Of a stretch of DNA of 64,000 bases, positions 13,281 to 41,392 are shown in pieces; positions within the stretch are counted from its first letter, which is position 1, and each line of letters begins with the position of its first letter. The notes beneath the pieces were generated by a model, which saw only the letters and a list, made by a program, of their open reading frames with translations, did no database searches and was not told where the DNA came from. The stretch is from positions 1 to 64,000 of the forward strand of contig JBDRZP010000003.1 of the NCBI GenBank assembly GCA_039804025.1. Direction: 5' to 3'. Both the position numbers and the translations under genes were made by a program. The DNA comes from a candidate division WOR-3 bacterium. GTDB lineage: Bacteria > Hydrothermota > Hydrothermia > Hydrothermales > JAJRUZ01.

Positions 13281-14834
<1,554 letters not shown>

Positions 14835-28689: not shown

Positions 28690-29961
28690 TTAACTGAAAG
28701 TAAAATAAATCAAAAGAACTTCAAATAAAACCCTTAATCTTGCATCTCCAAGAATACCAGTTGAGAAAATTAAAGGAAATAAAATAAATATTAAAAGAAA
28801 ACTATCTCTAAAATTTTTTAATAATTTCTTAAAAAATAAAATAAGAAGTAAAATATGGAAAAAAATTGAAAATAAGAGTATAAAAATTCCCTTTAATCCT
28901 AAAAAAATTATTCTTTCTTTAAAAATTTTTTCTATACCTTTTAAAATTTTTCCCTTAAGAAATAAACCAAAAAATTCCTGTTGAACCCCTCTAAGAATAT
29001 CCTTACCTGAAAAATAAACTATAAGAGGTTTCAATGAAATAGGTGAAAAAAGTGTATTAAAAGAAAATATAAAATGGGAAATTAAAAATTCTGGAAAGGT
29101 TCTTTTAAGTTCTTTTAAAGAAATTTTTATCATCCCATAATAAATATCTCCTTCATTAAAATTTTCTCCCAGTTCCTTTAAAAGTTCATCACTCATCTTT
29201 TCCCTTGCTTCACTAAAAGAAATTTTATCTTTTAAAGAAACAGAAAAAGGAACATAATAAGAAAAAAAATTAACAGGGATAACACTTGAAAAACCTAAAA
29301 ATCCCAAATTTTTATAAACAATTAAAACCCAAACAAAAGAAATTGCTAAAGGGAAAATTAATATAAAAAAGGCTCTTTTAAATTCCCTTATAATAAGAAA
29401 ATACATAAATAAAAATAATGGCAACAAAAGGGCAACAGGTTTTATATAAGGGAGGAGAGAAAGAATTAAAATAGAAAAAAGAAAACGGTTTTCCTTTAAA
29501 AAAATATAAAGAAAATAAAGAAAAAAACCAAAGAAAAAATCAGCTGTTGGTAAAAGAGAATGAAAATTCAAATTAGGTGAAAGAATAAAAAAAATTGAAA
29601 ATAAATAAAAACTTTTCTTTTTCATTTTTTTATAAGAAAAAATCAGCAAAATTATAGAAAGAATAACATTGATAACAAAATTAGTTAAAGGAGATTTATT
29701 TAATTTATAAAAAATTGAGAGAAAAAAAGGAAAAAGAGGAGTTCTATAAGTCTCAAATTTTCCATTTCTTGTAAAACCTTTTCCCTCGGATAAATTTAGT
29801 GCAAGCTCATGATATTCTTTTGCATCTGAAACTGATTCAAGAATTCTTCTTGGCTCGTTCAAACCTTCAAGAATGTAAAAAATTCTTGTTATTAAAAGAA
29901 AAAAAATTATAAGAAAAAGAGTAAATCTATAAGTCAGGATAATTTTCTTTATTCTTAACAC
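28690..29961 (-). CDS. GT-C fold membrane glycosyltransferase (ArnT/PMT-like)
   Basis: This 423-residue protein has about ten membrane helices. The first large loop holds RRILESVSDAKEYHELAL, with an Asp in the position used as catalytic base by GT-C enzymes, then EGKGFTRNGKFETYRTPLFP. The late loop has GDARLRVLFEVL, similar to the end motif of dolichyl-phosphate-mannose transferases. It probably transfers a sugar from polyprenyl phosphate to a protein or lipid; the acceptor is unknown. It overlaps thyX by 35 bp, which is long. The C-terminus is only about 30 bp from the tRNA-Ala gene. Confidence 0.7.
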   Translation of the reverse strand: MLRIKKIILTYRFTLFLIIFFLLITRIFYILEGLNEPRRILESVSDAKEYHELALNLSEGKGFTRNGKFETYRTPLFPFFLSIFYKLNKSPLTNFVINVILSIILLIFSYKKMKKKSFYLFSIFFILSPNLNFHSLLPTADFFFGFFLYFLYIFLKENRFLFSILILSLLPYIKPVALLLPLFLFMYFLIIREFKRAFFILIFPLAISFVWVLIVYKNLGFLGFSSVIPVNFFSYYVPFSVSLKDKISFSEAREKMSDELLKELGENFNEGDIYYGMIKISLKELKRTFPEFLISHFIFSFNTLFSPISLKPLIVYFSGKDILRGVQQEFFGLFLKGKILKGIEKIFKERIIFLGLKGIFILLFSIFFHILLLILFFKKLLKNFRDSFLLIFILFPLIFSTGILGDARLRVLFEVLLIYFTFS

Positions 29962-30610
29962 AGTATTTTAAAAAAGCCTCATATGTCCAGGGCATTTTTT
30001 CTTTGAAAATTTCTAAAATACATTTTGCATATTCCCTTATTTCATATTGAGCATGAATATCAAGTCTTAACCTCAAAAAATTCATCAAGCTCCTCGCATT
30101 AACTGTCCAGTAAAACTGCGTATAAGTTGAAAGAGGACATACAATCCTTGCAATTTCCCTTGCTACACCTCTCTCAAGAAGTTCTCTATAAACTTCAAAG
30201 GATTTTTCAAAAATATCTTGCATCTTTTTCAATAGCTCCTTTTCCTCCTCAATATCACCAAATTCACTCATCTGTTTATCTTTTTTTGATTGAACCCTTA
30301 ACTTTTCTGGTAAATAATATTCATCCTTGTATTCAGTATATCTACCTGAAATTTCATTATAAGAACCCCATCTATGCCTGAACCATTGCCTTGCAACAAA
30401 TATTGGACACTTCACATGAAATTTAAAAACCGAATGCTCAAAGGGGGTCATATGCTCATTTTCCATTAAATAAAATAAAAGCTTTTTATCCTTTTCTTCT
30501 CCTTTTAAACCCGAACCATAAGAAACCCTCGCAGATTGGACAACAGAATTATCACCTCCCATAAATTCAACAAGGCGTAAAAAACCTTTATCAAGAACTT
30601 TAAATTCCAT
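29927..30610 (-). CDS. thyX: FAD-dependent thymidylate synthase
   Basis: This 227-residue enzyme makes dTMP from dUMP with methylene-tetrahydrofolate, FAD and NADPH. The signature FRHRWGSYNEISGRYTEY (RHRxxSxxExSxRY, residues about 78-95) is intact. Also visible are GGDNSVVQSARVSYGSG and SLMNFLRLRLDIHAQYEIRE, which line the dUMP and FAD pockets. ThyX in place of ThyA is usual in anaerobes and thermophiles. It follows gmhA with a 10-bp gap. Confidence 0.95.
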   Translation of the reverse strand: MEFKVLDKGFLRLVEFMGGDNSVVQSARVSYGSGLKGEEKDKKLLFYLMENEHMTPFEHSVFKFHVKCPIFVARQWFRHRWGSYNEISGRYTEYKDEYYLPEKLRVQSKKDKQMSEFGDIEEEKELLKKMQDIFEKSFEVYRELLERGVAREIARIVCPLSTYTQFYWTVNARSLMNFLRLRLDIHAQYEIREYAKCILEIFKEKMPWTYEAFLKYCVKNKENYPDL

Positions 30611-30620
30611 TGTTAAATAG

Positions 30621-31199
30621 TTATTTTGCTCTATTTATTACTTCTTTTTCAATTAAAAAGGCAAAAATATGGAGTATCAATTCATGAACTTCCTGTATCC
30701 TTGGAGTTGAATTTGAAGGAACATTTATTAATACATCGCAAATCTCATGAACCGGTGGATTTTTATCTCCTGTAAGATAAATTATCTTTATTCCCATCTC
30801 CTTTGCCTTTTTACAGGCTCTGTTAACATTCTCTGATTTTCCTGATGTTGATATTGCTATTAAAGAATCACCTTCTCTTCCTAAAGCCTCTATCTGTCTT
30901 GAAAAAACATTTTCAAAACCTATGTCATTAGAAATTGCTGTAAGAGATGATGTATCAGTGGTTAGTGCAATTGCTGCAAGTCCCTTTCTTTTTTCAACCC
31001 TATATTTTCCAACAAGTTCAGCAGCAAAGTGTTGGGCTTGAGCAGCTGAACCTCCATTTCCACATATTAAAATCTTTCCACCACTTAATAGAGTTTGATT
31101 TAGAATTTTTACTGCCTCATTTATTAAGGTGGCAGAGTTTAAAATCTTTTTTTTAATTTCAATTGATTCTTCAATTTCGGATAAAATAAGGTCTATCAT
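30621..31199 (-). CDS. gmhA: Phosphoheptose isomerase
   Basis: This 192-residue SIS-domain protein converts sedoheptulose-7-phosphate to glycero-manno-heptose-7-phosphate, the first step to the ADP- or GDP-heptose of LPS or S-layer glycans. Evidence is ILICGNGGSAAQAQHFAAEL (residues about 42-61), ALTTDTSSLTAISNDIGFE, LIAISTSGKSENVNRA and RIQEVHELILHIFAFLIEK with the catalytic His. With the GT9 enzyme at 9,652 it supports heptose in a surface polymer. It is preceded by the MidA-like gene. Confidence 0.94.
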   Translation of the reverse strand: MIDLILSEIEESIEIKKKILNSATLINEAVKILNQTLLSGGKILICGNGGSAAQAQHFAAELVGKYRVEKRKGLAAIALTTDTSSLTAISNDIGFENVFSRQIEALGREGDSLIAISTSGKSENVNRACKKAKEMGIKIIYLTGDKNPPVHEICDVLINVPSNSTPRIQEVHELILHIFAFLIEKEVINRAK

Positions 31200-31215
31200 T
31201 TTAAAAAAAGTAATT

Positions 31216-32205
31216 TTAAGGATTTGAACCTCTTAAAATAAAAACCTTAAAAATTTCTCCCATGGCTTCGGGATTAATCAAGTAATTTAATTGACTGATT
31301 AGTTTAAGTCTTTCTTTACTCTCAAGAATTCTTTCATATTCAAAAATTTCCTCTAAATAATCTTTCAAAAAATCACTTAATTTTTTAATCTCAATAATTT
31401 CATAGCCTGAAAGTTCAAATTTTTTCTTTAAAAAATCAATATTTAAAGTCCTTGTTATATCCTTTTCACCCATTTCATCATAAAAATTATAGGAAACAGA
31501 ATGTTTTTTAAAAGCCCTTGCTGTTCCTTTTCCTTTTTTTATAATCTCATTCAAACTTTCTGCGTAATCTAAAAAAATTAAAAAAGAATCCTTAATTTTA
31601 TCTTTAATTTCCTTTAAAAAAATTATAATATCATCTGAATATTCAAAAACAGAATTATCAGGTATTTTATCCATAAAGTAATCTAAAAAATTGTCATCAT
31701 ACCTTCTAAGGATTTCTTTTTTATTTTCAAGGTCAACCATGATTTCAAATATTTTACCACTCATTTTAACAAATCTTCTGAAAGGAAAAGCATCTAAAAC
31801 TTCTATAATTATTATAAAACCCTTAAAATTTTTTATTTCTTTTAAAGAATCAAGAAAAATTACCTCTTTTAAATTTTTAAGTCTCTCTCTTGCAACTCTT
31901 AAAAGATTTTTTGAAGGTTCATAAAAAAAATATTTAATTTTCTTCATAATTTTCAAAAAATTTTCACAGAATACTCCCTCACCACCACCTATTTCTAAAA
32001 TTTCGTAAGTATTAAGTTCTTTCCCTTTTTCTTCTATGAATTTTTTAAGGGATAGAATTAAGGGTAAGGAAAAATTTGAAGGTGTTACAAAATCACCCCT
32101 TTCACCTGTCAAAAATTCTTTTTTTGTATAGAAACCTTTTTCACCATAAAGAGCTTCTTTCATAAAATCTTTAAAGGAAATTACCTTTCCTTTAATTCTC
32201 TCCAT
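31216..32205 (-). CDS. SAM-dependent methyltransferase, MidA/NDUFAF7-like
   Basis: This 329-residue protein belongs to the COG1565 group, whose eukaryotic member NDUFAF7 methylates an arginine of a respiratory complex I subunit. It has FMKEALYGEKGFYTKKEFLT and GERGDFVTPS at the N-terminus (family signature) and the SAM motif YEILEIGGGEGVFCENFLKI near residues 43-62. IIIEVLDAFPFRRFV corresponds to the acidic loop. It may methylate a protein, but a bacterial target is not established. It overlaps the MBL-fold gene by 25 bp. Confidence 0.82.
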   Translation of the reverse strand: MERIKGKVISFKDFMKEALYGEKGFYTKKEFLTGERGDFVTPSNFSLPLILSLKKFIEEKGKELNTYEILEIGGGEGVFCENFLKIMKKIKYFFYEPSKNLLRVARERLKNLKEVIFLDSLKEIKNFKGFIIIIEVLDAFPFRRFVKMSGKIFEIMVDLENKKEILRRYDDNFLDYFMDKIPDNSVFEYSDDIIIFLKEIKDKIKDSFLIFLDYAESLNEIIKKGKGTARAFKKHSVSYNFYDEMGEKDITRTLNIDFLKKKFELSGYEIIEIKKLSDFLKDYLEEIFEYERILESKERLKLISQLNYLINPEAMGEIFKVFILRGSNP

Positions 32206-32828
32206 ATAAAATCCTTTGCTTTTTTCAATTCAAATGATGTGAAGGAAGGACCATGCCCGGGATAAAACCTTCCTTCAAGTTCAAATAAAATTTCAAGAGT
32301 TTTCTTCAAAATTTTTTTATCCTCAACAAATAAAGAAATCCTTGGTCTTTTTAAAAAAGGGTTGGGACCAATCAGTGTGTCACCAATAAAGTAATTATTT
32401 TCTATTTTAAAAGTAACAGAACCGTATGTGTGTCCTGGTGTTTCAATTATATAAATACCATTTAAATCTTTTAAATTATCCCTTTCAAAAACTTCAAAGT
32501 CAGCAAATCTTTTTAAAAAATTTAAACTAAAATAAACTATGTTTGAATAAAAAGTGCCCTTTGATGGTGGAAGATGAATGATTTTATTTTTTACAAATTC
32601 ATAATCCCTCTCATGTATAAAAATTTTTGTCCCATTTTTTTGCAAAAAGCTTGCATTTCCAATGTGATCCCAGTGACCATGTGTTATAAGTAAATAATCC
32701 AATTTTTCTTTAAGAGAATTTATTTTTCTTCTTTCAAATGGTGAACCTGAATCTATAAGTATTTTTTTTTCATTAAATTCTACTAAGTAAAAAACAGAAT
32801 AAAAGGAAGAAATTCTTTTAATTTTCAA
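32181..32828 (-). CDS. MBL-fold metallohydrolase
   Basis: This 215-residue protein has the metallo-beta-lactamase fold. The motif LLITHGHWDHIGNASFL (HxHxDH variant HGHWDH, residues about 48-64) binds two metals. IETPGHTYGSVTFKI (the second His), YFIGDTLIGPN (the bridging Asp) and FYPGHGPSF (the last His) complete the active site. It is of the small glyoxalase II-like type, and its substrate is unknown. It is 1 bp from the roadblock-like gene, so it is probably transcribed with the chemosensory operon. Confidence 0.85.
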   Translation of the reverse strand: MKIKRISSFYSVFYLVEFNEKKILIDSGSPFERRKINSLKEKLDYLLITHGHWDHIGNASFLQKNGTKIFIHERDYEFVKNKIIHLPPSKGTFYSNIVYFSLNFLKRFADFEVFERDNLKDLNGIYIIETPGHTYGSVTFKIENNYFIGDTLIGPNPFLKRPRISLFVEDKKILKKTLEILFELEGRFYPGHGPSFTSFELKKAKDFIWRELKER

Positions 32829-32829
32829 T

Positions 32830-33168
32830 TTAAAGATCTATAAATCTTTGATGATAAATTCTTAAAAGCCCCAGGTTTACAGATTTTCTCGCAAAGGTAA
32901 TAAGGAAGCCTTTAAATTTGGGAGGGTTCTTCGACAATATAACAACCTTTTCCTTGGTAAAAATATATAAAATTGTTCTATTATCTTTATTATAACTCTT
33001 AAAGAAATTAATAAGGTCTCTTCTATCCTGGGGCGAAATATTAAAAGAAACTTCCTCATAAATTGAATTACCATTTTCATCTGTCACAATAATTCCATTA
33101 ACATCAGGATTTCTTAACATTTCTTTTAAATAAAAAAAACCTTTCTTACCTTTTGTTATTCCTTCCAT
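32830..33168 (-). CDS. Roadblock/LC7-like small protein
   Basis: This 112-residue protein matches the roadblock fold pattern: an N-terminal helix, then NPDVNGIIVTDENGNSIYEE (two strands joined by a DENG turn), a helix, TILYIFTKEKVVILSKN, and a final helix NLGLLRIYHQRFIDL. MglB, a roadblock protein, regulates the small GTPase MglA in type IV pilus polarity. It overlaps the preceding gene by 13 bp. A role with the che genes upstream is inferred from the conserved direction and spacing. No MglA-like GTPase is in the window. Confidence 0.6.
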   Translation of the reverse strand: MEGITKGKKGFFYLKEMLRNPDVNGIIVTDENGNSIYEEVSFNISPQDRRDLINFFKSYNKDNRTILYIFTKEKVVILSKNPPKFKGFLITFARKSVNLGLLRIYHQRFIDL

Positions 33169-33743
33169 TTGAGCTTTTTAACTATCCATCTTAATGTAAC
33201 AAAATTTGTATTTTCCTTAAAAATAAGAAATTTCCATTTACCATTTCCCTTGAAACCTACTTCTGGTAAATCCTTTTCAACAATTATTTCTCTCGGTTCC
33301 CCGATGCCCCATTTTTTAAAGTAAGTTTCAACAACTGTCACAAAGGGTAAAAGTTCATCATCTTCTCTTATTTCTTCCAGCTCATCAATACCTTTCAAAA
33401 ATTCAAATAACTCTTCCTTTTGCTCAGATGGTTTAATTTCTTCTTTTCTTTCAATCTCTTTTTTTTCTTCAAGTTTAATTTTAACTTCCTCAATTATCTT
33501 TTCTCCTTTCCTTTCCCTTATTTCTTTTAATTTTTCTCTCAAATAATTTACTTTTTCATTATCTTTCTGAAGTTCTGCGATTTTTATCCAAAGGGAAAGA
33601 GCTCTTTCAGATAAGGGGCTTGACCTTAAATAATCCTTCAAAAGAGTTTCAGCTTCAATAATTAAGTTGTGTTCAATATACTCCTCAACAAGTTCAAGAA
33701 GCAAGCTGGACCTCGGATCATAAAAAAGTTTTTCTTCTTTCAT
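33156..33743 (-). CDS. Hypothetical protein with helical N-terminus and charged linker
   Basis: I do not recognise this 195-residue protein. Residues about 8-75 look like TPR-type helices (LELVEEYIEHNLIIEAETLL, LSERALSLWIKIAELQ). A strongly charged linker follows (IIEEVKIKLEEKKEIERKEE). The C-terminal 60 residues are mixed alpha/beta (FVTVVETYFKKWGIGE, GFKGNGKWKFLIFKE). The gene overlaps both neighbours (4 bp with the PATAN gene, 13 bp with the roadblock gene), so it is a fixed member of this operon. It could be an adaptor between the TPR proteins and the roadblock protein (inference). Confidence 0.6.
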   Translation of the reverse strand: MKEEKLFYDPRSSLLLELVEEYIEHNLIIEAETLLKDYLRSSPLSERALSLWIKIAELQKDNEKVNYLREKLKEIRERKGEKIIEEVKIKLEEKKEIERKEEIKPSEQKEELFEFLKGIDELEEIREDDELLPFVTVVETYFKKWGIGEPREIIVEKDLPEVGFKGNGKWKFLIFKENTNFVTLRWIVKKLKWKE

Positions 33744-34864
33744 ATTAAGAGTTTTCTCTTATCAATTTCTAAAAGTAAGGTTCTTAGAAGGGACAAAAGT
33801 CTATCAATTCTTTCCTTTAAGTCAGGAGTTGAATATTCATAAGCTTTTTCCCATGCTTTAAGTGCTCCCTGAAGGTCTCCGAATTTAACTCTTACAAAAC
33901 CCATACCATAGTAACCTAAGGGGTTATGTGGATCCCTTCTTATTACCTGATAATACTCCTGTGATGCAAGTCTATAATTTTTTAAAAGAAAATATAGATC
34001 AGCAAGAAGAAGGTGAGCCATTATAAAATCAGGATAAAGGGAAAGAGCTTTACTCAAAAAAGCTTCGGCCTCTAAATATTTACCCTTTTTTATCATATCC
34101 CTTGCTTTTAAAAAAAGCTCTTCTGCCTCTCTTTTTGCTTTTTCCTCAAGAGCTTTATCCACTTCCTTAAATTCTATAATACCCCTTTCATGTAATCTTA
34201 TTATCTCCTTTGCTACTTCAATAGAAGGCAATCTAAATTCTTCCATAATATCCTCAATTTTTCTCCTTCCATCTACCAAGGAAAGTATTTTCCATTCAAG
34301 AGGAGAAAGATCAAGATGAGAGGCACCTTCATTAATCCATTTTTCTGATAAAACTGGAACAAGGGAATAGGAGGGTATTTTTTTTGAAATTTCTTCCCAT
34401 TCATCAAGTCTTCTTGAACTTTCAAGCAAAATATCCTGAATATCAAAAGAAAAGGGGTCGGGCAAAACTTCTCCTTCATCTTTTATTTCATCAAACCTAA
34501 ATTCTCCTTTTTTCCAGGAAAGAATTTCAAACATTCTTGTTTCATTAGACATTCTTAAAATTTTTATAATTGGGGAAAGATCTTTAATTTTTTCATAGGC
34601 AATTTTTAAAATTTCTTTCTCATTAAATTTTAAATCTTCCTGTAAATCTTTCAAAAGACCTGACTGTTTTATTTTTGTATATAAGAAATCATCACCAACT
34701 ATTGTTATAAGCTGTAAATTACCTCTCTTTAAAATAATCTCTGCAGAATTTTTCTCCTTTTTAAGTTCATTTATAGCTTTAATCTTACCTGTTTTTCTGT
34801 TCATAGCAAGTATCTGCAAAAAATCAATAAGGGAAAGTTCTTCAAGTTTACCTTCAATTGGCAT
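33740..34864 (-). CDS. PATAN-domain (DUF4388) protein with TPR repeats
   Basis: This 374-residue protein starts with the PATAN/DUF4388 fold: MPIEGKLEELSLIDFLQILA and NRKTGKIKAIN, up to FRFDEIKDEGEVLPDPFSFD. A winged-helix-like segment follows (LSPLEWKILSLVDGRRKIEDIM, residues about 185-235), then TPR repeats (AEAFLSKALSLYPDFIMAHL, SQEYYQVIRRDPHNPLGYYG). In cyanobacteria, PATAN response regulators act on type IV pilus motility. Here no receiver domain is fused. It overlaps the 807-residue TPR gene by 1 bp. Together with CheA it may form the input or output of the pathway (inference). Confidence 0.7.
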   Translation of the reverse strand: MPIEGKLEELSLIDFLQILAMNRKTGKIKAINELKKEKNSAEIILKRGNLQLITIVGDDFLYTKIKQSGLLKDLQEDLKFNEKEILKIAYEKIKDLSPIIKILRMSNETRMFEILSWKKGEFRFDEIKDEGEVLPDPFSFDIQDILLESSRRLDEWEEISKKIPSYSLVPVLSEKWINEGASHLDLSPLEWKILSLVDGRRKIEDIMEEFRLPSIEVAKEIIRLHERGIIEFKEVDKALEEKAKREAEELFLKARDMIKKGKYLEAEAFLSKALSLYPDFIMAHLLLADLYFLLKNYRLASQEYYQVIRRDPHNPLGYYGMGFVRVKFGDLQGALKAWEKAYEYSTPDLKERIDRLLSLLRTLLLEIDKRKLLI

Positions 34865-37287
34865 TAAATTCTCACCTCCTTTTCAAGCATTTTTAACCAT
34901 TTTAATGCAAGTGCTGAGTATTCCTTTGCTTTTTTTGCAAGAGGTGAATTCTCGGAAAGCCTCACAACTTTAGTCCATTCTTCAATTGCTTTTGCATACT
35001 TTCCAATTAAAGCATAGCATACCCCGAAATAGAAATGCAATTCTTCTTTTAAAAAGAAATCCTTTTGTAAGGATTTAAAAAGCTCTATAGCTTCCTTATA
35101 TTTACCCTTTGCTGTAAGATCAATGGCAATTAGAAGGTCAGCATATTTATTAAATCCCTCTTTCTTTAAAATTTCTACTTTATTTCTAAAATTTTCTTCA
35201 TCTTTTAATTTTAAAGAACATCTCGCATATGCATAAAGTGCCTCCTTATTTTTACTATCTTCTTTAATGATTTTTTCATACTCTTTTCTTGCCTCTTCGT
35301 ATCTTTCCAGTTTTTCAAGCAATTCACCAAACCACATTATTATCTTAGTATCAGGTTTAGATTTTTTTAATACCCTTTTTAACACTTCCAAGGCTTCATT
35401 CAATTCACCCTTTCTTTCCTTTATTTTTGCCTTTAAAAGCAAAACATCAATGTACTCTTTATCTTTTTTTATAATCTTATCTAATTCTTCTTCTGCCCTA
35501 TCATATCTTTTTGTTCTGTAAAATACATGGGCAAGATGTAATCTTATTCTATCGTCTTCTTTTTCTTTAAGTAATTTAAAATAAAAATTCTCTGCATTTT
35601 CATAAAAACCAAGATTTTCATAAGCAAGAGCAAGTAAATAAAGAATCTCCTTATCCTCAGGATATTTTTTATTAAGGGGAAGGAGTAATTTAAGAGCATT
35701 TTCAAAATCCCTATTCTTTAAAAGAATTTTTACCTTTTTTAACTCAAGAAACTTATCGCCTTCAAATTCTTCAACCTCTTTAGAAGGGAAAATTCTTGAT
35801 TCAACAGGTCTTGGGGAACCTTCAATAGCAAAAAGATATTGGAATACATTTGCCTTTTCTTCTTCCTTAAAACTAACATCTTCACCGTTTATTTTTGAAA
35901 GCAAAAAGGCAGCATAGGAAAAATCAGGTTCTATTCTTAAAGCCTCTCTCAAAAGTTCTTTTGCTTTGTCTTTTTCTCCAATCTCATTAAGTATTTTTGC
36001 ATAAAGAGTAAGATAAAATGGGTTCTCCTTTTCAATTTCATTAATTTCTTTAAGATACTGAAGGGCTTTTTCCAAATTATTCTCTTCAATTGCTATGAGA
36101 GATAGATTATAAAGTGGAACTATAAAACCTGGCTCAATTTCATAGGATCTCTGAAAATATTCTTTGGCTTTTTCTCTATTTTCATTTGCTATTATACAGG
36201 CTAAATTATTTAAAGCATAAGGATAATTCTTTATCCCTTCAAAAATTTTTCTTGCTTTTTCTGTATCTCCCCTTCTCGAAAGAGCTATTGCGTACATATT
36301 CCATGTATGAAAGTCCTTTTCTTTAATTTCTTCTATTAAAGAAATAGCTCTATCCCAATTCTCTTCAAGCAGAAAAATCTCAGCCTCTATCTTCTTTAAT
36401 TCGGGTCTTGTATCATCCATTTTCTTTAGTTCTTCAAGAATATTCTTTGCTTCCCTCAAGAAGAGTTTGTTTTTGTATGCTTCAAGAAGATTAAGTCTTG
36501 ATTCAAAAGGATCTGCTTTTATCTCAATTATTCCTATGGATTCCTGTAATAATTCCTCAATAGATGGAGCTTCTTCATCTATACCAAGTGCTCCTTGAAC
36601 TTTTGATATTCTGGGATCAAGTTCTTTTGCCTTTATAGCTTCTTCTAAGGCTTCTTCTAAATATCCTTTTTCTCCAAGGGCAAAGGAAAGATAAAGATGG
36701 GCTTTTGCATTGTTTGGGTCTTTTTCGATTACTTCTCTTAGAACTTTTATTGCTGAGTCATAATTTCCCTGATTATATAAAACTTCTCCCAGATCAAGTT
36801 TAATATCTAAATCTTCTGGTAGAATTCTTTGCGCTCTTCTAATTGCTGCAATTGCCTCTGGAAATTTTCCCATCTTCTTGTAACATCTTATCACCCCTTT
36901 AATTGCTTCCTTATTTTTTGAATCTCTTAGCAAAACCTCTCTATACTCCCTCAAAGCATGTGAGTATTTTGCTAATTGGTAAAGGGTCTTTGCATATTCA
37001 AGCCTTGCATTAATATCCTCAGGATTTTGTTCTACTTTCCTAAAATATTTATCAATAAGATCTTCTTTTTTCTTGGTTTTTTTTAAAATTATTTCAAGAT
37101 TGATTCTTGCTATATTAAAATCTGGATCAATATCAAGAGCTTTTTTAAGCTCATTAATAGCCTCATCAAATAAGCCTCTGTTGAAATAAACTACCGCAAG
37201 ATTGTTATGAGCTGCTGGATCAAAGGGATCAATCTTTGTAGCAAAAGACTTCAAAATTCTAATCTCTTCCTGAGTAGGAGATCTCAT
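34864..37287 (-). CDS. Large TPR protein of the chemosensory operon
   Basis: This 807-residue protein is almost wholly tetratricopeptide repeats, at least a dozen, for example PFDPAAHNNLAVVYFNRGLF, INELKKALDIDPDFN, NPEDINARLEYAKTLY, DPNNAKAHLYLSFALGEKGY and LLALAYENLGFYENAENFY. There is no signal peptide or membrane helix, so it is cytoplasmic, and it is probably a scaffold that binds several partners. Its gene overlaps cheC (4 bp) upstream and the PATAN gene downstream. TPR scaffolds of this size are rare in che operons. Its ligand is unknown. Confidence 0.8.
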   Translation of the reverse strand: MRSPTQEEIRILKSFATKIDPFDPAAHNNLAVVYFNRGLFDEAINELKKALDIDPDFNIARINLEIILKKTKKKEDLIDKYFRKVEQNPEDINARLEYAKTLYQLAKYSHALREYREVLLRDSKNKEAIKGVIRCYKKMGKFPEAIAAIRRAQRILPEDLDIKLDLGEVLYNQGNYDSAIKVLREVIEKDPNNAKAHLYLSFALGEKGYLEEALEEAIKAKELDPRISKVQGALGIDEEAPSIEELLQESIGIIEIKADPFESRLNLLEAYKNKLFLREAKNILEELKKMDDTRPELKKIEAEIFLLEENWDRAISLIEEIKEKDFHTWNMYAIALSRRGDTEKARKIFEGIKNYPYALNNLACIIANENREKAKEYFQRSYEIEPGFIVPLYNLSLIAIEENNLEKALQYLKEINEIEKENPFYLTLYAKILNEIGEKDKAKELLREALRIEPDFSYAAFLLSKINGEDVSFKEEEKANVFQYLFAIEGSPRPVESRIFPSKEVEEFEGDKFLELKKVKILLKNRDFENALKLLLPLNKKYPEDKEILYLLALAYENLGFYENAENFYFKLLKEKEDDRIRLHLAHVFYRTKRYDRAEEELDKIIKKDKEYIDVLLLKAKIKERKGELNEALEVLKRVLKKSKPDTKIIMWFGELLEKLERYEEARKEYEKIIKEDSKNKEALYAYARCSLKLKDEENFRNKVEILKKEGFNKYADLLIAIDLTAKGKYKEAIELFKSLQKDFFLKEELHFYFGVCYALIGKYAKAIEEWTKVVRLSENSPLAKKAKEYSALALKWLKMLEKEVRI

Positions 37288-37892
37288 TCAAAAAAGGATT
37301 TTAATTTTTCCTGAATTATACCAATTGCGTGTTCATCAGGTAAAAAGAAAAATGCTATCTTTATTTCTATCCCATTTTCTATTTTCAAAATTGACTTTAT
37401 GCATAAAGCAAAACCTCTTTCTGCCTCAATCTGAAGAAAAGCATCTGAAAGAATAGCCCTTATATTATCATTCTTTAAAAAGGGTACCGTAGGTAGGGCT
37501 AAAAGTCCAAGAAAATCTGATAAGGCTGTCATATATGCTCCTGTGATAATATTCCCCACTTCCTTTAAAGCAGATTCTTCCTGTTCATTAATTTCAGAAA
37601 CCCTTTCTCTCATTAAAAGGGATAAAAGGGAAATAGCTTCTTCTTTTGAAAGTAAAAGGAGAGTAAGTCCGGTAAGATCTCCTAAAAAATAAAGAAGAAT
37701 TCCAATGGCTTCTTCATCAGTCTTACCTGCAACTTTTTCAAAAACGGTTCCCATATCACCTATAAAAACCTCAGGTACACTCATCATTACCTTTCTGTTT
37801 ATAAGACCAGAAAGTGCGGTGGCTGCATGACCGCAACCAATATTTGCTACTTCCCTTAAGCCATCAATACCAAAAATTCCTTCTTCTTTCAT
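37284..37892 (-). CDS. cheC: CheC-type CheY-P phosphatase
   Basis: This 202-residue protein has two copies of the CheC active-site motif (D/S-x3-E-x2-N): DGLREVANIGCGHAATALS near residues 10-28 and SALKEVGNIITGAYMTALSD near residues 105-124. Each helix is followed by a Pro (SVPE, ALPTVP). CheC removes phosphate from CheY and normally acts with the deamidase CheD, which is not visible here. The gene begins 1 bp after the cheA stop codon and overlaps the TPR gene, so its dose should match that of CheA. Confidence 0.9.
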   Translation of the reverse strand: MKEEGIFGIDGLREVANIGCGHAATALSGLINRKVMMSVPEVFIGDMGTVFEKVAGKTDEEAIGILLYFLGDLTGLTLLLLSKEEAISLLSLLMRERVSEINEQEESALKEVGNIITGAYMTALSDFLGLLALPTVPFLKNDNIRAILSDAFLQIEAERGFALCIKSILKIENGIEIKIAFFFLPDEHAIGIIQEKLKSFFE

Positions 37893-37893
37893 T

Positions 37894-39684
37894 TTAATTC
37901 TCCATAAATTTTGAAGGGTCTATAATAATTGATGGGGTTCCATCCCACAAAATTGTTCCCCCTGAGACATAGGGTATTCTCATAATATAAATATCAAGAG
38001 ATTTTACTACTACATCCATCTGAGAAATAACTTTATCCACTATTAAAAGAGCCCTTTTTCTATCACTTTCTATCAAAAGAGCTGAAAACTTCTCTTTTTT
38101 TGAACCATTCAATTTTAATTTCCTTGACATCCAGATGCATGGTAGAACTTCATCTCTTATTAACATATAATCTCTGCCCATAATTTTCTTTATATCTCTC
38201 TCACTTCCCTCTATTATTTCCTGAATAAAAACAAGGGGTATAACGAATCTGTTACCTGCTACATCAACAACCACACCTCTTGTTATAGCAAGAGAAAGAG
38301 GTAATTTTAGTTTTATAGTAGTACCCTTCATATATTCACTTTCAATTTCCATAAAACCACCCATCCTCGTTATAAACTGTTTAACCACATCCAACCCCAC
38401 CCCTCTGCCAGAAATCATTGTAGTATCCTCTTTTGTTGAAAAACCAGGAATTGTTATAAGTTCAAAAACCTCTTTGTCAGTTAAAACCTTTGCCTTTTCC
38501 TCTGAAATCAAACCTTTTTCAATGGCTCTTTTAATAACCTTATTTTTATCAACACCCCTTCCATCATCTTTTATATAAATTGTCACTGAATTTTTTTCCC
38601 TTTCAAGTTTTATATAAATTATGCCTTTCCTACTTTTTCCAAATTTTAATCTTTCCTCAGGGAGCTCAATTCCGTGGTCAAGAGAATTTCTAATTATATG
38701 AAGAAGCGGTTCTCTCATCTCCTCAAGTAAAGCTCTATCAAGTTCAATATCCCCCCCCTCTATTAAAAGTTCTGCTTCTTTTCCCATTTCTTTTGCTTTA
38801 TCTCTCACAAATCTTTTAAATCTCTCAAGAATCTGAAAAGCAGGAATTAGTCTTATTGACATAACATCATCCTGAAGATAGGAAATAAGTCTTTCAAGAT
38901 TTTCCATATTGTCCTGTATTTCCCTATCTTCTATTTGTCTTAATTTTGAAAACAACCTTTCCTTAGCAATAACTATTTCTCCCAACCTATCCATTATTGT
39001 ATCAAGTTTCTCCGATTTAACTCTAATTTCTTCAAGAGGTTTAATTTCAAATTCTTTTTCTTCTAACTTTATTTCCTTTTTTTCTTCAATAAAATAATGC
39101 TCTATATCTTCAAAACTCTCAACCACCTCCACAATTTCTTCTTTTTCCCTTTCAGTCTCAAGTGTTATCTTAAGTAAATTACTAACATTTTCTTTTATTA
39201 TATCATCTTCACTTGGTTCTGAAAAAAGTATATTAAATTTCTCCTTAAATTTCCTTAAAATAACAAGCATTCTCGCAGCAATAAGAGGTGTTTGAGGATC
39301 AATATATATTTCTACATCATAGAACTTTTTGGATTTGTCTTTTTCTTTTAAAGATTTTAACTCATCAAAACTAAAAGACCCCTTTTCTTCAATCATCATC
39401 TTTAAAGCATCCAATGCTTTAAAAAGAAAATCAAAATCCAGCTCTTTCTTTTTGCCTTTTCTTAAATCATCAAATTCATCTTCAAGTCTGTGACAAAAAT
39501 TTTCTATATTCTTTTTCTCAACAGCTGCTGCCATTCCTTTTAAAGTGTGCGCAAGTCTAAAAATCTCATTTAATAGCTTTTCTGAATCAGGTTTTTTTTC
39601 AAGCTCAAGTATATTTTTCTCTAAATTTGTCAATATCTCCTCTGCCTCACTTTTAAAAAGTTCAAGATATTTTTTTTCTATCAT
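37894..39684 (-). CDS. cheA: Chemotaxis histidine kinase CheA
   Basis: This 596-residue kinase has the five-part CheA layout. The Hpt domain holds the phosphorylation site His 46 in FRLAHTLKGMAAAVEKK. A P2-like linker follows (residues about 120-200), then the dimer helices (SEKLDTIMDRLGEIVIAKE). The ATPase has the N box LHIIRNSLDHGIELPEERL and GRGVGLDVVKQFI. The C-terminal CheW-like domain starts TRGVVVDVAGNRFVIPL. It would phosphorylate the CheY next to it. Its ATG overlaps the cheY stop (4 bp). No MCP receptor gene occurs in the window. Confidence 0.96.
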   Translation of the reverse strand: MIEKKYLELFKSEAEEILTNLEKNILELEKKPDSEKLLNEIFRLAHTLKGMAAAVEKKNIENFCHRLEDEFDDLRKGKKKELDFDFLFKALDALKMMIEEKGSFSFDELKSLKEKDKSKKFYDVEIYIDPQTPLIAARMLVILRKFKEKFNILFSEPSEDDIIKENVSNLLKITLETEREKEEIVEVVESFEDIEHYFIEEKKEIKLEEKEFEIKPLEEIRVKSEKLDTIMDRLGEIVIAKERLFSKLRQIEDREIQDNMENLERLISYLQDDVMSIRLIPAFQILERFKRFVRDKAKEMGKEAELLIEGGDIELDRALLEEMREPLLHIIRNSLDHGIELPEERLKFGKSRKGIIYIKLEREKNSVTIYIKDDGRGVDKNKVIKRAIEKGLISEEKAKVLTDKEVFELITIPGFSTKEDTTMISGRGVGLDVVKQFITRMGGFMEIESEYMKGTTIKLKLPLSLAITRGVVVDVAGNRFVIPLVFIQEIIEGSERDIKKIMGRDYMLIRDEVLPCIWMSRKLKLNGSKKEKFSALLIESDRKRALLIVDKVISQMDVVVKSLDIYIMRIPYVSGGTILWDGTPSIIIDPSKFMEN

Positions 39685-40049
39685 TTTGACTTTATGACTC
39701 TTTCAACAGCTTCAAGGACCCTAGCGGGCTGGAAAGGTTTTACTATGTAGTCCTTAGCTCCAGCCTGAATAGCTTCAAGAACAAGGGGTTGTTGTCCCAT
39801 AGCAGATACCATTATTATTTTTGCATGAGGATCAAAAGATATTATTTCTCTAACTGCGTCTATTCCACTTTTATCAGGCATGACTATATCCATTGTCACA
39901 ATATCAGGTTTAAGTTCCCTATAAAGTCTTACAGCCTCTTCACCATTTGAAGCCTCTCCACATATTTCATAACCACCCTTTTTTAATATATCTGCAAGAA
40001 GTTTCCTCATAAATTGTGCATCATCTACTATTAATACTCTCGGATTCAT
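39681..40049 (-). CDS. cheY: Response regulator CheY
   Basis: This 122-residue single receiver domain has the acidic pair Asp 9-Asp 10 (VLIVDDAQFMRKLL), the phospho-acceptor Asp 54 in DIVTMDIVMPDKSG, a Ser in IIMVSAMGQQPLV and the Lys in AKDYIVKPFQPARVL. No output domain is fused, so it must act by binding a partner. With no flagellar genes nearby, that partner is probably a type IV pilus regulator or motor (inference). It lies between cheW and cheA. Confidence 0.95.
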   Translation of the reverse strand: MNPRVLIVDDAQFMRKLLADILKKGGYEICGEASNGEEAVRLYRELKPDIVTMDIVMPDKSGIDAVREIISFDPHAKIIMVSAMGQQPLVLEAIQAGAKDYIVKPFQPARVLEAVERVIKSK

Positions 40050-40060
40050 TAAGTTTTCCC

Positions 40061-40507
40061 CTATTTAAAATGGATTTGAACCTCACCGGGAATCTTTTTT
40101 GGATCTATTATTAAAAATTTTCTCTTCTCAAGAACAGCTTGACCTTTTAAAAGGGACCTATCTATATCTTTTTTTAGATTTTCTGGAATTTCACCCATTT
40201 TAATCTCTTCACATTCAAAAACTCCTAAAATTGTATCCACTTCACAAGCATAAACTCTTTTAGGCTCAGGAGAAAGTATAATAAAAAACTTTTCTTTACC
40301 TTCTCCATTTTCTTCAATGTTCATTCTTTTCTTTAAATCAAAAAGAGGTATAACATTACCCCTTAAGTTAAAAATTCCTTTAAAATGTGGTGGAGAAAGT
40401 GGAACAGGAACAACTGGTTTTGGTTCTGAAATTTCAAGAACATTTTCCATAAGAAAAGAAAATTCCTTTTCAGAAATTCTAAAAGCAATTATTTGTTTTT
40501 TTTCCAT
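40061..40507 (-). CDS. cheW: Coupling protein CheW
   Basis: This 148-residue SH3-like coupling protein links receptors to CheA. It shows FRISEKEFSFLMENVLEISE, PHFKGIFNLRGNVIPLFDLK (the core CheW motif with NLRG...P..DL) and VDTILGVFECEEIK. It is the first core gene of the che operon, only 19 bp behind the cas6 stop codon. Receptor binding implies an MCP encoded elsewhere. Confidence 0.92.
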   Translation of the reverse strand: MEKKQIIAFRISEKEFSFLMENVLEISEPKPVVPVPLSPPHFKGIFNLRGNVIPLFDLKKRMNIEENGEGKEKFFIILSPEPKRVYACEVDTILGVFECEEIKMGEIPENLKKDIDRSLLKGQAVLEKRKFLIIDPKKIPGEVQIHFK

Positions 40508-40526: not shown

Positions 40527-41261
40527 TCAGCTTGTTTTTTCCACCATTCCGAAACCCATTGAAGTTTTTTCTCCCAGTCCAGAATCCATTATAAATCTTA
40601 AAACCTGAATGTTACCCCTTAAATTCAAAGTAGCCATATACCCTTTAACTTTTATGTTTTTAATGGAGTAAAGCTTTGACTTATACGATTCACACATTAT
40701 TTCTATATCATAATCTGAAAGCCTTTCCCCTGTAAAACATTCAAATTTATCCTTTATTATTTCTTTTAATTTATGGTAAAAATGCTCGGTTTCAGGAGAA
40801 AGATAAATTGAAAAACTTTTATTCCCCTCTTTTTTGCTCTGAGATACAACAAGAGGAGAAAGTGTTTTAGCTTTTAATTCATTATTAATTTCGCTTATTT
40901 CAAATATCTTTGTTTTTAAAACAGGAAGATTATAGCAAAGGAGTTTCAAAAAACCTTCTTTTTTTAAAACACTTTCAAGAATTTCAATAAAAACTGAATC
41001 TGGTGAAGAAAGTATAAAAGTTAAAGGACCTATCATTAATATATAATCCTTTTCAAAAGAAATTTTTTGAGGAAAAAGAGGAGAAAAGGAAAAAAGTTTA
41101 AAATTTTTATTCTTATAACTCCATCCTTTTGAATGAATATTGTATGAAAATTTTAAACTATATTTGCTTAAAAGATAATAGATAGAAGAAGCAAGAAAAT
41201 AATTATATGACCAGGGAATCTTATATTCTTTATCTTCACCAACCAGAAGCTTCAGCCTCAA
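40527..41261 (-). CDS. cas6: CRISPR-associated endoribonuclease Cas6 (orphan)
   Basis: This is a 244-residue Cas6-family RNase of the I-A/III-B-like type, which cuts CRISPR repeat RNA. The first ferredoxin-like half has PWSYNYFLASSIYYLLSKY, then IHSKGWSYKNKNFKLFSFS with the catalytic His (residue 43) and a nearby Lys. The last part has MATLNLRGNIQVLRFIMDSG followed by the glycine-rich loop GLGEKTSMGFGM, a hallmark of the family. The annotated frame begins at 41,303 inside tRNA-Arg, so I chose the TTG at 41,261, 15 bp after the tRNA. No array or other cas gene is visible, and cheW follows at 19 bp. Confidence 0.9.
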   Translation of the reverse strand: MRLKLLVGEDKEYKIPWSYNYFLASSIYYLLSKYSLKFSYNIHSKGWSYKNKNFKLFSFSPLFPQKISFEKDYILMIGPLTFILSSPDSVFIEILESVLKKEGFLKLLCYNLPVLKTKIFEISEINNELKAKTLSPLVVSQSKKEGNKSFSIYLSPETEHFYHKLKEIIKDKFECFTGERLSDYDIEIMCESYKSKLYSIKNIKVKGYMATLNLRGNIQVLRFIMDSGLGEKTSMGFGMVEKTS

Positions 41262-41276
41262 ATTCTTTCTTTTATA

Positions 41277-41350
41277 CGCCCCCGGCAGGACTTGAACCCG
41301 CAACCACCGGATTAGAAATCCGATGCTCTATCCAGTTGAGCTACGGGGGC
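41277..41350 (-). tRNA. tRNA-Arg (UCU)
   Basis: The 74-nt cloverleaf begins GCCCCCG and ends CGGGGGC with discriminator G. The anticodon loop TTTCTAA gives TCT (codon AGA). The T-arm is GCGGGTTCAAGTCCTGC. CCA is not encoded. It is transcribed from the promoter at 41,392-41,364, and cas6 begins 15 bp behind its 3' end. Confidence 0.96.
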
Positions 41351-41363
41351 AGTATATTTATAA

Positions 41364-41392
41364 ATTATAAAATTTTACAAATTAAATTTCAA
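41364..41392 (-). promoter_or_regulatory. Promoter of tRNA-Arg and probably the cas6-che operon
   Basis: On the minus strand, TTGAAA (41,392-41,387), a 17-nt spacer and TATAAT (41,369-41,364) form a near-consensus sigma-70 promoter. The predicted start is near 41,357, only a few bases before the mature tRNA 5' end. No second promoter is evident between the tRNA and cas6, so readthrough into cas6 and the che genes is likely. Confidence 0.82.

Follow-up and report, generated by a model that had tools for sequence, protein, structure and literature searches.

The occurrence of a cas6 gene immediately ahead of a chemosensory operon, in a 64-kb stretch of DNA (hereafter the window) that contains no CRISPR array, raises the question of what this protein does and on which RNA it acts. 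The answer that we favor, from a comparison of the source genome (G000) with four relatives of the same order (G001 to G004), is that this Cas6 (the orphan) became detached early in the order and was retained as an endoribonuclease that cuts a cellular RNA independently of CRISPR, a reading to which we assign a probability of roughly 0.55. A bolder form, in which Cas6 would be a core CRISPR-independent cellular RNase in the whole order, acting on a conserved non-CRISPR RNA of its own, is put forward tentatively, at slightly less than even odds.

The orphan matched both Cas6 family profiles above their curated cut-offs, with 98.7 bits (E 5.6e-28) for Pfam PF01881 (Cas_Cas6_C, cut-off 23) and 113.4 bits for NCBIfam TIGR01877 (cut-off 58.65), and its best match in PADLOC was the Cas6b model (159 bits). 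The ORF finder gave a longer frame, which extends into a tRNA-Arg gene; the start at position 41261 is conserved instead, and the orthologs have their start codon at the equivalent residue, namely TTG (G002 and G001), GTG (G003) or ATG (G004). The sequence-only reading, which had described a Cas6 of normal length with a His43 region and a glycine-rich loop, is borne out by a product of 244 residues containing H43 and the motif GLGEKTSMGFG. In plasmid and viral collections, the Cas6 matches to the orphan were distant only. The gene and its surroundings are arranged as follows:

41364..41392, minus strand: promoter-like site TTGAAA-17-TATAAT (consensus match only), directly upstream of tRNA-Arg
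41276..41351, minus strand: tRNA-Arg (TCT), ending 15 nt before cas6; upstream of cas6 also in G001, G002 and G003
40527..41261, minus strand: cas6 ortholog, 244 aa, TTG start, predicted catalytic Y28/H43/K55, G-rich loop at residues 228-238
40061..40507, minus strand: cheW, 19 nt downstream of cas6
39681..40049, minus strand: cheY-like receiver protein
37894..39684, minus strand: cheA, with Hpt, P2, H-kinase_dim, HATPase and CheW domains
37284..37892, minus strand: cheC/cheX-like phosphatase
34864..37287, minus strand: large TPR protein
33740..34864, minus strand: DUF4388 and TPR protein
29927..33743, minus strand: remaining co-directional block (two unknown genes, a metallo-beta-lactamase fold protein, a SAM methyltransferase, a SIS-domain protein and Thy1), in the same order in G003

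Approximately 13 genes, down to position 28690, run in the same direction as cas6 and overlap or are separated by tiny gaps, in agreement with the earlier description of a cas6 lying 19 bp before cheW and followed by ten or more co-directional, overlapping genes. That description also placed cas6 at the head of the operon; cas6 does adjoin cheW, but the unit is headed by the tRNA-Arg gene. Because the tRNA is preceded by a promoter-like site and no terminator-like site was found between tRNA-Arg and cas6, the tRNA, cas6 and che genes likely form a single transcript, as judged from these signals; promoter-like sites are similarly placed before the tRNA in G001 and G003. A search of the window against Rfam returned only tRNAs and a 16S rRNA, with no structured RNA near cas6 besides the tRNA. 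The 16S rRNA gene is complete (13282-14834, minus strand), and no 23S or 5S match was found in the 64 kb, which represents an unlinked rRNA arrangement.

The predicted catalytic residues Y28, H43 and K55 correspond in the alignment to the Tyr, His and Lys of Pyrococcus furiosus Cas6 and are invariant in all five orthologs, as is the loop GLGEKTSMGFG on the C-terminal side, except at residue 229. A lysine at position 50 is also invariant in the five orphans and rare among the CRISPR-linked Cas6 set, and the orphan loop GEKTSMGFG differs from the loops of local CRISPR Cas6 proteins, which are mostly GSKNSQGFG-like. The AlphaFold model (pLDDT 88.5) has the Cas6 (RAMP) fold: its top Foldseek matches were all Cas6 or Cas6-related, with TM values of ~0.8-0.86 to 5yi6, PH0350, the P. 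furiosus Cas6-related protein and PfCas6. Given the conservation of Y28/H43/K55, their alignment with PfCas6 and the match of the model to Cas6 structures, the orphan is likely to be catalytically active.

As for the CRISPR content of the source genome, no other cas gene was found on the cas6 contig when the whole genome was searched for Cas1, RAMP and two families of Cas7, the genome's CRISPR repeat does not recur in the window, either whole or in part, and neither adjacent cas genes nor an array was found in the window or near the orthologs in the stretches read. The earlier statement that the 64 kb hold no CRISPR repeats and no other cas gene is thus upheld, and the gene is an orphan locally but not genome-wide: other contigs of G000 carry at least three cas1 genes (one truncated at the end of its contig), four further Cas6 matches (one a contig-end fragment) and two arrays, as counted by a search for clustered GAAAC/TTGAAA patterns that could miss repeats ending otherwise. 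The CRISPR repeats of this genome are GTTTTGAGCCTACCTATGAGGGATTGAAAC and GTTTAAATTCCTCTTTGGGTGACTGAAAC. On contigs C40 and C28, each array-bearing locus includes a cas6 of its own, next to cas1 and effector genes. The Cas6 of the complete type I-B locus on C28 (L005:13503-14258), which clades with those of G015 and G024, shows a gap at the catalytic His43 column, so that the orphan may help in trans at this locus. Two further candidate arrays (G000:C7:29213-30294 and G000:C17:38351-39615) were rejected, being instead in-phase repeats of ~126 bases in likely repetitive protein genes.

An ortholog of the orphan was found in all five sampled genomes of the order, at 394-456 bits, compared to 126 bits for the best other Cas6 in the 40 class genomes searched. 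Identity to the G000 protein is 98% in G002, 67% in G001 and 58% in G003, which belongs to another genus. The order tRNA-Arg, cas6, cheW, cheY, cheA is kept in these four genomes, representing two genera of one family; the adjacency of cas6 and cheW, which the sequence-only reading would have discounted if confined to a single genome, is therefore conserved among relatives. In G003, conservation extends from the equivalent of position 28690 up to the tRNA, past which the gene content differs. In G004 (Candidatus Hydrothermus pacificus, of another family), the ortholog has 44% identity and heads an hsp20-lon operon: it has its own promoter-like site and no tRNA upstream, overlaps hsp20 by 4 nt, and hsp20 is followed by lon and then by a gene of the dihydrodipicolinate synthase family. 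Linkage to che genes, found in four of the five genomes but not in G004, is thus not a general property of the orphan, which is kept while the partner operon changes between families. Because the partner operon differs in this way (che versus hsp20-lon), a chemosensory-specific substrate is not supported, and the earlier suggestion of an RNA linked to the che operon is weakened.

The five orphans grouped together (support 97/96) in a phylogeny of 36 Cas6 proteins, branching in the order of kinship. The comparison with the genome's other Cas6 proteins that had been proposed earlier placed the orphans in a clade of their own, whose sister group is not the pair of CRISPR-linked Cas6 proteins from these genomes (G000_C40/G003_C58). 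The GEKTSMGFG loop is common to the orphans and to the Cas6 of Methanothermococcus and of a spirochaete, with weak deeper grouping (81/62). Nei-Gojobori dN/dS of the orphan was 0.078 between G000 and G002 and 0.131 between G000 and G001, with neighbouring genes in a similar range and dS near saturation for wider pairs. The orphan Cas6 is vertically inherited in the order and under purifying selection.

Compared to the orphan, present in five of five genomes, CRISPR content is patchy, a pattern that is drawn from five genomes, with incomplete MAGs among them and arrays identified by pattern only. Arrays were detected in three genomes (G000, G002 and G003), and the pattern search found none in the incomplete MAGs G001 and G004. 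G003 has one type I-B locus (C58), which includes its own cas6 as well as a long array. G002 has an array at one contig end, cas3/Cmr1 at another and no cas1 in its assembly; as its CRISPR cas6 may be unassembled, this genome cannot decide the matter. G001 harbors a decayed type I-B locus (L122:6212-9519), with cas6 and cas8b broken and cas7 still open, as well as a Cmr1 gene near a contig end, and no cas1 was found in it. In G004, profile searches for Cas1, RAMP, DevR/Cas7 and Cas_Cas7 gave no match. However, a CRISPR locus could be missing from this genome (JdFR-72), since it is an incomplete MAG, 91.5% complete according to PMC5369317 and 95% in the present listing, and CRISPR loci in these genomes lie on short contigs or at contig ends. 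Two other candidates in G004 were rejected, namely a second Cas6 (14 bits, below the cut-off, in a frame without visible Cas6 features) and an excess of TTGAAA triples, which are scattered across contigs and not clustered. The combination of patchy CRISPR content and a universal orphan favors a CRISPR-independent role. The sequence-only reading had left the choice between processing in trans and recruitment to another RNA; persistence in G004, where no cas gene or array was detected, favors recruitment, short of proof.

The main rival explanation casts the orphan as a spare copy resident in the genome, maturing crRNAs in trans for arrays and effectors located elsewhere, of which type III-B Cmr modules are an example. 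Such trans-processing is a reasonable default, given that the majority of type III systems depend on a Cas6 provided in trans (PMC12669027). Cmr modules often lack their own Cas6, arrays exist in three of the genomes, Cmr1 genes lie at contig ends in G001 and G002, the I-B cas6 of G001 is broken, the C28 Cas6 is gapped at His43, and the orphan retains its catalytic residues. However, the search for a full CRISPR-Cas locus without its own Cas6, which had been named earlier as a finding that would speak against recruitment, showed that the complete loci (C40 and C28 in G000, C58 in G003) each carry cas6. In addition, no array was found in G001 and no CRISPR component in G004, CRISPR is patchy while the orphan is universal, and the orphan loop is unlike those of the local CRISPR Cas6 proteins. 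On balance, we regard this explanation as less likely than the favored one.

Autoregulation, in which the orphan would bind or cut the tRNA-Arg-cas6-cheW transcript, for instance on the 3' side of the tRNA, and thereby set the supply of chemosensory proteins, appears improbable. It draws on the tight packing of tRNA, cas6 and cheW in four genomes, on the promoter-like site before the tRNA in G000, G001 and G003, and on the lack of a terminator-like site between tRNA and cas6, but the G004 cas6 stands before hsp20-lon with no upstream tRNA, and Rfam revealed no structured RNA near cas6 except the tRNA. A wider candidate form, in which the orphan cuts its own message generally, would fit both families. 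Finally, CRISPR loci do decay in this group, as exemplified by the broken I-B cas6 and cas8b of G001, and the orphan might be no more than what is left of a lost CRISPR locus, decaying and retained by chance. This is hardly credible for a gene with an intact frame, invariant catalytic residues and a dN/dS of 0.08-0.13, as the selection test contradicts it, and the orphans are monophyletic and retained in every sampled genome of the order.

According to the favored reading, a Cas6 detached from CRISPR and retained for a cellular RNA, separation from any CRISPR locus would have preceded the divergence of the five sampled genomes, and selection would have kept the protein as a sequence-specific, metal-independent endoribonuclease. 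The gene would be transcribed from the tRNA promoter, and cleavage would follow the usual Cas6 chemistry, in which attack by the 2'-OH yields products ending in a 2',3'-cyclic phosphate and a 5'-OH; each bound RNA would probably be cut once. The substrate would be a cellular RNA that is not specific to chemosensory functions.

Compared to CRISPR-linked Cas6 proteins (PF01881, TIGR01877; P. furiosus Cas6, 3i4h/3pkm; 5yi6), the orphan has the same fold (TM ~0.8), length, G-rich loop and catalytic Y/H/K, but it has no array or cas neighbours, resides in tRNA-che or hsp20-lon operons, forms its own clade and carries the invariant Lys50. Among its closest folds (TM 0.84-0.86) are Pyrococcus PF0393, which we take to be the locus name of the P. 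furiosus Cas6-related protein, and PH0350 (PDB 3ufc, 3qjj, 3qjl), whose PDB titles refer to a Cas6-related gene and to a RAMP protein binding different RNA substrates. Both are presumably non-catalytic, and PH0350 lacks, in a profile alignment, the His and Tyr residues retained by the orphan. A further Cas6-like gene outside CRISPR was observed in a Spirochaetota MAG (L099:8001-8798, JAKPDD010000023.1), with no array in the 16.8-kb stretch; it follows tRNA-dihydrouridine synthase and pseudouridine synthase genes, precedes a ferritin-like gene, and has L, G and N in place of the catalytic Y, H and K.

Stand-alone Cas6 proteins acting in trans are common for type III systems (PMC12669027) and, like the orphan, are encoded away from effector loci, in their case the ones that they serve; the orphan, however, persists in G004, a genome with neither an array nor an effector detected. 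Exaptation of Cas components to non-defence roles, including the myxobacterial dev operon, involves whole or reduced systems (PMC8730458), and a lone catalytic Cas6 is absent from the exapted cases in the part of that source considered here. In the open-licence literature, we came across no description of a solitary Cas6 that retains its active site and serves as a housekeeping gene. The host is heat-loving, and the thermophilic relatives and the small size of the orphan should ease its purification and testing. The orphan differs from the dev operon and similar cases in being a lone Cas6 and not a whole or reduced system; if our reading is correct, it would be a sequence-specific RNase with a cellular target and a case for what Cas6/RAMP RNA processors can become.
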